Source of the DNA: Sphingomonas changnyeongensis
Lineage (GTDB): Bacteria > Pseudomonadota > Alphaproteobacteria > Sphingomonadales > Sphingomonadaceae
DNA length: 64,000 bases
NCBI RefSeq assembly: GCF_009913435.1
Contig: NZ_CP047895.1
Span: 504,501 to 568,500 of the forward strand
Direction: 5' to 3'
Shown: piece after piece, positions 61,615 to 64,000 of the stretch
How positions within the stretch are numbered: position 1 is the first letter of the stretch
How the letters are laid out: each line of letters opens with the position of its first letter
Notes under the pieces: generated by a model
Told to the model about the DNA's origin: nothing
Database searches by the model: none
What the model saw: only the letters and a program-made list of their open reading frames with translations
Program-made: the position numbers and the translations under genes

Positions 61615-62756
61615 ATGATGACCAAGTTCAGCCGCAACTGCAGCTTCCTGACCCTTGCCCTGACGCTGGCCGCCTGTGGCGGCGGTGGGGGCGGCGGCGT
61701 CGGCTCCGCCGGCTCGGCCCCTCCGGCGCCTGCGCCGGCGCCAGCACCCAGCCCGGCTCCGGCACCTGCGCCAGCACCGGCACCAGCACCCAGCCCGGCA
61801 CCTGCTCCCGCCCCGGCACCCAGCCCTGCCCCGGCACCCGCGCCAAGCCCTGCGCCTGCGCCTGCGCCTGCGCCTGCGCCTGCGCCTGCGCCCGCGCCTG
61901 CGCCTGCGCCCGCGCCGACGACAAACACCACGCTCACCAATCTTCAGGTCAGCGAGACCTTCGCCGCCCCGGTGGCCGCATCCAGGCGACGCTCGGCGCA
62001 TCGGGCAATAGCGGCGTGACCGGCACGCTGTCCGATGCCGGCAGCGGCGTCAGCCTTGCCTATGACGCGGCGACCGGGGGCTATACGATCCGCGACGCGA
62101 CCGGCGCGAGCACCAGCTTCCTGCCGGCGAACCGCGAGGCCAATACCGCGCCCGGCCGGTCGGATGCGGTCGCGACCGTCTATGCCAAGTCCAGCGGCAA
62201 CCGCGACGACGAGCTGATCCTGTTCAACCCCGGCAGCGGCAACACCCAGCTGGCGCTGACCTATGTCAGCTATGGCGCATGGCAGGCGCTGACCGACAAT
62301 GGCGCGACCTCGACGCTGGCGACCCAGTATTTCGTGTTCGGCATCCGCCAGTCGCCGACCCAGCCAAGCACCGGGTCAGCCAGCTACACGACCAAGCCCG
62401 ACGGGCTGTGGGTGACGCCGAACGGCGTCTATTCGCTGTCCGGCACCAGCAGCTTCACCGCCAATTTCTCGGCGATGACGGTGTCGACCCAGCTGAACCT
62501 CACGGGAACGCTGGCCACCGACAGTTCGACGACGCGCAGCCTGGGCACGTTCAACGGCACCGGCACCATCGCGGCGCTGGGCGGGGGCTTTACCGGCAGC
62601 TTCACCCAATCGGGCACCGATGCCGGCGGCAACACCTATAGCGGCGGCTTTACCGGCGCATTTTTCGGCCCGCAGGGTCAGGAAGTCGGCTATAGCTTCC
62701 GCCTGACCGGCACCGGCGGGACGGCGGTGGGCGCCGTGGTCGGCCGGGGCAACTGA
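61615..62756 (+). CDS. Slam-dependent surface lipoprotein, TbpB-like barrel (frameshifted near 61971-61972)
   Basis: Probable cargo of the Slam translocator at 62792. Lipoprotein signal LTLALTLAAC (lipobox L-A-A-C, Cys21), a Gly run, then a long Pro-Ala/Pro-Ser linker (residues about 36-103). The frame breaks near 61971: reading on gives nonsense, while one added G gives SETFAAPGGRIQATLGASGN and joins to GVTGTLSDAGSGVSLAYD and a transferrin-binding-protein-like domain ending GGFTGAFFGPQGQEVGYSF. The GxFxGPxxxEVGxxF end is the TbpB/HpuA-like barrel signature. About 380 residues when restored. Ligand unknown. Confidence 0.88.
61740..61914 (+). repeat. hexanucleotide tandem repeats encoding a Pro-Ala linker
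   Basis: Short-period repeats inside the lipoprotein gene. Seven perfect CCTGCG hexamers in a row (61849-61890), then variant units (CCCGCG) to 61914, and related CCAGCACCC/CCGGCACC units upstream to 61740. All units are multiples of three, so copy number changes would alter only linker length. Confidence 0.88.
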
Positions 62757-62791
62757 GCGCGGACAGGGTCCGGGCGGACTGGGAGGGGAGA

Positions 62792-64000
62792 ATGGCGGTC
62801 GCCGCGCGGCGCGCGATGCTGCTCGCCCTCACCTTGCTCACCCTCGCCGTGCCGGCCCTGCCAGCTGCTGCCCAGTCCGCCGCACCGCCGCCCGCCCCGG
62901 CTTCGCCGGGCCAGACGCCCTGCGAACAGGCGCGCGTCTGCGCCTCGGGGCTGAGCGCCGCACAGGTGTTCGCGGTGGCCGAGGCCCAGGCCGCAGCCGG
63001 CCGGATCGCGGCTGCCGAAACGCTGCTCCGCGGCCTGACCCGCGACCCGAATGGTGATATTCGCGCCGAAGCGCGCTTCCGCCTGTCGGTGCTGGCCGAG
63101 GCGCGCGGGGACCGGGCGGCGGCCATCGCCTGGCTCAAGGAGCTGATCGACGAAAAGCCCGGCGCGCCGCGCCCGCGGCTTGAACTGGCGCGGCTGCTCG
63201 CTCTCGCGGGCGACGAAGCAGGCGCGCGCCGCGAGCTGCGCCGCGCCGGGGCCGCCGGGCTGCCCGAAGATGTGGCGCGGGTCGTCGACCGGTTCGCGCT
63301 CGCGCTGCGGTCGAGCCGCCCGATCGGCGGGGCGTTCGAGCTGGCGCTCGCCCCGGATTCGAACATCAACCGCGCCACCAGCCTGCAAAGCGTCGATACG
63401 GTCGTCGCCCCGCTGGTGCTCAGCCCCGATGCGCGCGCGCGCTCGGGCATCGGCGTGTCGCTGTCGGGGCAGGGCTTTGCCCGCGCCGCCCTGTCGGACA
63501 GGATCGAATGGCTGAGCCGCGTGTCGGCGCGCGCGGATCTTTATGGCCGGTCTCAGTTCAACGATGTCGTGCTCACGCTCGCGACCGGGCCTGAGCTGCG
63601 CGCCGGCGGCACGCGGCTGCGCCCGGCACTGGTCGGCACCCGCCGCTGGTTCGGCGGCGTGCGCTTTTCCGATGCGGTCGGCGGATCGTTCAACCTGTTG
63701 CGCCCGCTCGACCGGACCAGCCAGATCGAGGCCGAGCTGACCCTGCTCGACAGCCGCTTTCCGGCGATTCCGGCGCAGGACGGGGTGCTCGCCGATCTCA
63801 ACATCGCCTATGACCGCGCCTTCTCCCCGCGCTTCAGCGGGCGGGTGGGCGCGCGGATCACGCGGCAGGATGCCCGCGAAGCGTTCCTCGCCAACCGCAC
63901 GGTGGCATTCGACCTGCTCGCCTCGCGCGCCTTTGGCAAACAGCTGCTGTTCCTGCAGGCGGTGGGCAGCCGGCTGCAGGGCGATGCCCGCGACCCGCTG
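62792..64000 (+). CDS. surface lipoprotein assembly modifier Slam (DUF560), partial
   Basis: Outer-membrane translocator of type XI secretion, incomplete at the right edge (403 codons present). Signal peptide (LTLLTLAVPALPAAAQ), then a periplasmic TPR-like domain (AAAGRIAAAETLLRGLTRD, GDRAAAIAWLKELIDEKPGA, LELARLLALAGDEAGARREL) and the start of the DUF560 barrel, opened by the Slam hallmark FELALAPDSNINRATSLQ. A GGAGGGGAGA ribosome site precedes ATG 62792, only 35 bp after the lipoprotein stop, so the two form an operon. Confidence 0.9.
   Translation, partial: MAVAARRAMLLALTLLTLAVPALPAAAQSAAPPPAPASPGQTPCEQARVCASGLSAAQVFAVAEAQAAAGRIAAAETLLRGLTRDPNGDIRAEARFRLSVLAEARGDRAAAIAWLKELIDEKPGAPRPRLELARLLALAGDEAGARRELRRAGAAGLPEDVARVVDRFALALRSSRPIGGAFELALAPDSNINRATSLQSVDTVVAPLVLSPDARARSGIGVSLSGQGFARAALSDRIEWLSRVSARADLYGRSQFNDVVLTLATGPELRAGGTRLRPALVGTRRWFGGVRFSDAVGGSFNLLRPLDRTSQIEAELTLLDSRFPAIPAQDGVLADLNIAYDRAFSPRFSGRVGARITRQDAREAFLANRTVAFDLLASRAFGKQLLFLQAVGSRLQGDARDPL

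Follow-up and report, generated by a model that had tools for sequence, protein, structure and literature searches.

A probable type XI secretion (Slam) pair with a frame-broken, TbpB-like cargo, inherited behind lptB-rpoN in one branch of Sphingomonas

Introduction

Do the two genes at positions 61615-64000 of the Sphingomonas changnyeongensis DNA analyzed here (a stretch of 64,000 nucleotides, referred to as the window) constitute a type XI secretion system and, if so, what do they carry to the cell surface and with which partner? Published work, cited throughout from excerpts of the papers concerned, describes Slam1 as a translocon and Skp as a holdase: TbpB enters proteoliposomes containing Slam1, in higher yield when Skp is present (PMC9090332). 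Of 353 Slam genes surveyed, 185 lie beside genes encoding a lipobox, and 120 of these 185 clusters include a gene for a TonB receptor (PMC5449769). The DUF560 proteins fall into ten clusters, with subcluster 1C drawn mostly from environmental Sphingomonadaceae and having no characterized members (PMC8406197). A cargo architecture termed "Sphingomonas surface protein" has been described, and the Sphingomonas and Psychrobacter cargo types contain two to three handle-barrel pairs (PMC12282271).

The initial annotation of this DNA proposed a Slam pair that displays one lipoprotein outward, and held Slam systems of environmental alphaproteobacteria to be little studied. A sphingomonad subcluster and a cargo architecture are already on record (PMC8406197, PMC12282271), although the excerpts of these papers report no bench test of a sphingomonad type XI system. 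The window pair is an ordinary member of a known, published system. What is new here is a single-barrel branch linked to rpoN, its stalk, and the lack of lipobox and stalk from nearly all close database entries.

The secretion protein

The second gene of the pair has its ATG at 62792, 35 bp after the end of the barrel ORF, a spacing that the initial annotation had given correctly, and the rest of the gene lies beyond the window. Its 462-residue product has TPRs at the N terminus, the motif PDSNINRAT, and F as its last residue, which is invariant in 13 aligned sequences. The TPR half of the earlier description as a TPR plus DUF560 protein stands directly, with TPR_19 matching at 29.4 bits (cut-off 25); TPR_Slam gives 15.7 bits, below its cut-off of 35.2. 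The DUF560 half is reached only through relatives. PF04575 has no match to the 462-residue protein up to an E value of 0.1, and a genome search with this model found nothing at the 62792 gene, the form cut by the window end likewise giving no match. Such a lack had been named in advance as grounds for giving up the Slam reading, and taken literally it is what was found. However, 58 of 60 aligned Slam homologues (an alignment taken from the 120 listed of 311 homologues found) match PF04575 at 1e-3, with 46 of the 60 matching TPR_Slam at the same threshold, and a paralogue encoded by this genome, with 44% identity across 412 residues, passes PF04575 at 27 bits against a cut-off of 22. The miss is thus a limit of the model and not absence from the family.

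The motif PDSNINRAT had been called a Slam hallmark, and it behaves as one: the degenerate form APD[ST]N[IV]N[RN]A occurs in 173 stretches of the genome contigs, 170 of which encode relatives of the query alignment (tblastn), and it is a good, specific mark of the family. A Slam profile run against the PDB gave 87 matches; the 60 listed all came through the TPR region, and none of these was named Slam. By homology, on which the label rests, the 62792 protein is a member of the Slam/DUF560 family.

The cargo gene and its frame break

As sequenced, the first gene of the pair lies in two frames. Signal peptide, lipobox, and stalk occupy one, in an ORF from 61615 that carries MMTKFSRNCSFLTLALTLAAC and ends at the stop codon 62017-62019; the barrel occupies the other, in the ORF 62016-62756, which carries GAFFGPQGQEVGYSF. 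The GTG of the barrel and the upstream TGA overlap at 62016-62019, and the lipobox, recognized by pattern, is out of frame with the barrel. The lipobox protein with a TbpB-like barrel that had been proposed is therefore present in both of its parts but not as a single open frame.

Comparison with the TbpB_B_D profile, suggested earlier as a check on the barrel, came out in its favor: the Pfam model matches at 29.5 bits, above its cut-off of 26. The NCBIfam model slam_lipo (NF041636) gives 30.2 bits, well short of the 80 at which it assigns an equivalog. A barrel profile built from 59 sequences (that of the window and 58 of the other 73 database proteins found) retrieved TbpB from the PDB at 2.1e-14, with the strongest alignment over its C-terminal half, and hemophilin weakly (E 0.27); 55 of the 59 aligned proteins match TbpB_B_D individually at 1e-3. 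Both Pfam and our own barrel profile find a single barrel in the window's cargo. These matches support its reading as a putative TbpB-like lipoprotein. The idea that the barrel is a chance ORF was rejected, as best-match identities are 58-64% in four genomes of the same genus.

In all seven named orthologous loci the cargo gene is unbroken, with lipobox (by pattern) and stalk in frame with the barrel. The barrel frame of the window contains no stop across 246 codons, and pairwise dN/dS for the barrel is 0.35-0.50 between the window and three relatives, compared with 0.17-0.53 in four comparisons between relatives; the Slam gene gives 0.29-0.34 for the window and 0.09-0.34 between relatives. 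The open barrel frame and these ratios together point to constraint that was kept until recently, and a sequencing error and a recent loss would each account for the frame break in the sequenced strain. Sequencing errors are common at sites such as this one, a C run beside a GC-rich repeat. The assembly of a near strain (G003) lacks this stretch, so the break had no check there. Because the cargo gene is broken, outward display of the lipoprotein, as initially claimed, cannot be asserted for this strain; the identification of a Slam pair with a TbpB-like lipoprotein is supported by profiles, PDB match, and conserved pairing.

Elsewhere among sphingomonads, a frame break or in-frame stop seems to split the cargo gene at L087:9218-11220, L099:1768-3652, and L110:9388-13146. 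Phase variation of the cargo at the repeat tract was considered and rejected, since the repeat periods are multiples of 6, the break lies outside the repeats, and the splits at these three loci fall at other places in the gene. A promoter and terminator scan found no promoter-like sites and two terminator-like sites, against 0.6 expected in shuffled sequence, neither of them between the cargo and Slam genes.

Table 1. Coordinates of the window pair, its neighbors, and the second locus
Feature	Coordinates	Strand	Remarks
Gene in lptC position, named by position only	57775..58422	+	Homologue in 7 of 8 rpoN-linked loci, own included
lptA-like gene	58419..58970	+	Pfam LptD_N/LptA 73 bits (cut-off 20.4); NCBIfam LptA 60.9, below 71.7; conserved neighbor
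lptB, LPS export ATPase	59037..59921	+	NCBIfam LPS_export_lptB 358 bits (cut-off 240); conserved neighbor
rpoN (sigma-54)	59930..61546	+	Directly upstream of pair; NCBIfam rpoN_sigma 402 bits (cut-off 277); conserved neighbor
Cargo gene, 5' part: putative signal peptide, lipobox LTLAAC (Cys = residue 21), Pro/Ala-rich stalk	61615..62019	+	N terminus alike in orthologues
Imperfect tandem repeats coding the stalk	61721..61917	+	Periods 6, 12, 18, 36, 42 bp
Frame break, stalk frame (..SETFAA) versus barrel frame (GGRIQATL..)	61963..61976	+	At a short C run
Cargo gene, barrel part, TbpB_B_D-type	62016..62756	+	Pfam match; database protein P0122, 246 aa from GTG
Predicted type XI secretion/Slam outer-membrane protein	62792..64000	+	First 403 of 462 codons; whole gene L002:7293-8681
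Second locus: TonB receptor, lipoprotein, Slam	L003:728-8670 (G000:C1:2255727-2263669)		All on one strand
Second locus, TonB receptor	L003:728-3415		Directly upstream of lipoprotein
Second locus, 1209-aa lipoprotein	L003:3724-7353		Lipobox, Pro-rich stalk, several barrels
Second locus, Slam protein	L003:7360-8670		

The stalk

Between the lipobox Cys and the SETF motif, the window's cargo has 92 residues, 37% of them Pro and 33% Ala. Measured in the same way, from the lipobox Cys to a SETF-like motif (in L044 to a different end motif), the stalks of the eight proteins of the branch described below are 71, 89, 92 (window), 137, 138, 143 (L040), 159, and 315 residues long. The share of Pro lies between 0.37 and 0.45 in all eight; next in abundance comes Thr for six of them, Ser for L042, and Ala for the window. 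A constant share of Pro beside a varying second residue suggests that length and stiffness are conserved rather than exact sequence. The stalk would appear to be a spacer. All periods of the repeats that encode it in the window being multiples of 6, the reading frame is kept when whole units are gained or lost.

A branch linked to rpoN

In a midpoint-rooted tree of Slam proteins (83 rows for 82 loci, one having two copies), the Slam protein of the window is separated from the rest by a branch with 100/99 support, together with those of seven loci, L038-L044, from Sphingomonas sp. ID1715, S. changbaiensis (L039), S. horti, a MAG, S. flavalba, S. sp. SCN 67-18, and S. jejuensis. Upstream of the pair, lptB and rpoN are present in all eight of these loci, and the flanks of the remaining 74 showed no rpoN. 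Homologues of the two genes preceding lptB occur in seven of the eight and were not found in L044; the second of these genes from lptB, at 57775-58422, has no match in Pfam or NCBIfam. Downstream at the locus is gyrB (NCBIfam). The rpoN gene itself is present in 29 of 30 relatives, own genome included, and a barrel protein follows it within 1.5 kb in five of these 29 genomes, all five (again including our own) of the same genus. The usual neighbor of rpoN is Ribosomal_S30AE, which in this genome is placed elsewhere, at C1:662408. The pair has been inherited within one Sphingomonas branch behind lptB-rpoN, a branch of which we found no mention in the excerpted literature on these type XI/Slam systems. 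The same tree nests the Slam protein of a member of the Caulobacteraceae, Brevundimonas guildfordensis (L085), among those of sphingomonads, a possible transfer between families.

Related loci and TonB receptors

The 82 loci comprise the best 80 of 170 confirmed relatives, all carrying the motif, and the two loci of the genome itself. A barrel-protein ORF is present in 74 of them, with one to four barrels per ORF according to a profile grown on these same loci; it was not found in eight, several of which start or end near a contig end. Three TbpBBD protein ORFs form an array by one Slam gene at each of two loci (L083:4872-7932, L089:9122-16113). Across 397 genomes of the family, each scored through its best candidates alone, 86 encode a relative of the secretion protein at an E value of 1e-30 or better, and eight, own included, have one of at least 56% identity over most of its length; one further genome, G003, yielded only a fragment, 97% identical. 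A match at 1e-10 was obtained in 14 of 40 relatives and the lipoprotein barrel in five of six genomes of the genus, the own genome being counted in both.

The genome contains 38 matches to PF00593, the TonB receptor model, none of which is closer than about 110 kb to the window pair. When 27 receptor ORFs of this genome, taken from 30 of the 38 PF00593 loci, were used as queries at an E value of 1e-4, a TonB-receptor-like ORF was found in 25 of the 82 loci, the second locus of the genome among them, and in none of the eight loci of the branch (phmmer, flanks of ~8 kb, or less at contig ends); a search seeded with a single receptor retrieved just that receptor. As the flanks extend to only ~8 kb, distant receptors may be missed. 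The earlier remark that the visible sequence contained no TonB receptor is borne out to a distance of about 110 kb from the window pair and over the ~8-kb flanks of the seven orthologous loci.

The second locus presents a different arrangement (Table 1). Its cargo contains four barrels by our own profile, two TbpB_B_D stretches by Pfam, and three by slam_lipo, which it matches at 64.6 bits, below the cut-off of 80. It fits the published "Sphingomonas surface protein" type with multiple TbpBBD domains, as far as the excerpt describes it (PMC12282271).

Database annotation of the cargo

Close homologues of the barrel are represented in the database by 54 entries (P0122-P0175, P0122 being the window's own), and in 52 of these the first 45 residues contain no lipobox-like motif; such a motif is present in 16 of 20 more distant homologues. 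The length filter of the search admits full-length forms of up to ~679 residues. The annotated starts of the close homologues are scattered over many columns of the alignment, and the entry for S. changbaiensis (P0148) has 234 residues, where the open frame at L039 spans 435 codons from stop to stop. Scattered starts, together with in-frame lipobox and stalk upstream in all seven named loci, make it most likely that the short forms are gene-calling artefacts, with a start error at the Pro-rich repeats the likely cause; for some of the 54 entries, which derive from short metagenome contigs, the start could also have been lost at a truncated contig end.

Discussion

Among known systems, subcluster 1C resembles the window pair in host group, in its TPR plus DUF560 protein, and in the adjoining TbpBBD cargo; the excerpt describing it gives no function and makes no mention of rpoN (PMC8406197). 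The Slam protein of the window is likely to belong to this subcluster. The "Sphingomonas surface protein" shares with our cargo a sphingomonad lipoprotein, Pro-rich N-terminal repeats, TbpBBD, and a type XI partner, but it has multiple TbpBBD domains and Pro-Thr repeats, whereas the window's cargo has Pro-Ala repeats and one barrel, and so falls outside that type (PMC12282271). The Neisseria Slam1-TbpB system likewise pairs Slam with a lipidated cargo of the TbpB barrel type (PMC9090332, PMC5449769), although TbpB is two-lobed and works with a TonB receptor, in contrast to the one barrel, long stalk, and lack of an adjacent receptor seen here. The hemophilin/HrpC type (TXISS-1B) has a single TbpBBD barrel in common with our cargo but is soluble, cleaved by SPI, and secreted, with neither the lipobox nor the stalk of the window's cargo (PMC8406197).

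That 61615-64000 encodes a type XI secretion pair, using the route of that system, we regard as highly probable; about the function of the barrel we are much less sure. The lipoprotein would be exported by Sec, lipidated at Cys21, and carried to the outer membrane, with a periplasmic chaperone keeping it unfolded, the role of Skp in Neisseria; the genome encodes one Skp/OmpH homologue. The 62792 protein, a putative barrel with its TPRs presumably facing the periplasm, would then pass the lipoprotein to the surface, where the C-terminal TbpB-type barrel would fold outside and be kept off the membrane by the flexible Pro-rich stalk, whose length might suffice to reach beyond the surface glycan layer. 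On this account, the cargo may be a module for binding or adhesion that needs no TonB receptor gene next to its own.

Homology of the barrel to TbpB invites a more familiar role, that of a co-receptor that binds an iron or heme protein and delivers it to a TonB receptor encoded elsewhere. Candidates are plentiful, given 38 PF00593 matches in the genome; the paralogous locus has its receptor directly upstream of the lipoprotein, and an association with such receptors is seen in 25 of the 82 loci and in 120 of the 185 published clusters (PMC5449769). The single barrel, as opposed to the two lobes of TbpB, and the empty surroundings, both here and at all eight branch loci (with the reservation as to distant receptors), nevertheless make a co-receptor unlikely. 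Weightier, if still doubtful, is the notion that the system is dead in this strain, the cargo being a young pseudogene and the Slam gene left over or serving another cargo. The break does part lipobox and stalk from the barrel, and split-looking cargo genes are also seen at L087, L099, and L110; on the other hand, 246 barrel codons remain without a stop, constraint on barrel and Slam gene is much like that of the relatives, and the break sits at a C run by a GC-rich repeat, which is error-prone in sequencing.

The database lists the protein differently again, as a non-lipidated barrel made alone from the GTG at 62016, and the GTG/TGA overlap at that site, as well as the 52 of 54 close entries (the window's own included) that start behind the stalk, could be quoted on its behalf. 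We think this very improbable: the annotated starts are spread across many columns of the alignment, the seven named orthologous loci all have lipobox and stalk in frame upstream, and a barrel without a signal peptide could not reach the Slam protein.

Returning to the reading of a lipoprotein displayed by its own Slam partner, we can sketch a broader history, which is speculative and which we put forward as no better than a tentative proposal. The branch may have departed from TonB-linked uptake in favor of displaying one TbpB-type barrel on a Pro-X stalk shaped like a rod; the length of this stalk (71-315 residues in eight proteins) would be tuned by frame-neutral changes in the repeats. Such a protein would have become a fixed component of the envelope, encoded behind lpt-rpoN in one Sphingomonas branch, and would have been hidden from surveys as gene callers remove lipobox and stalk.

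The start error in the cargo carries a practical warning about annotation for type XI surveys: those that look for signal peptides on annotated proteins would be expected to miss most of this subfamily or to call its members non-secreted. There is also a wider interest in the organisms themselves. In sphingomonads, glycosphingolipids reportedly replace LPS, and a working pair would therefore test the export of surface lipoproteins in an unusual outer membrane.
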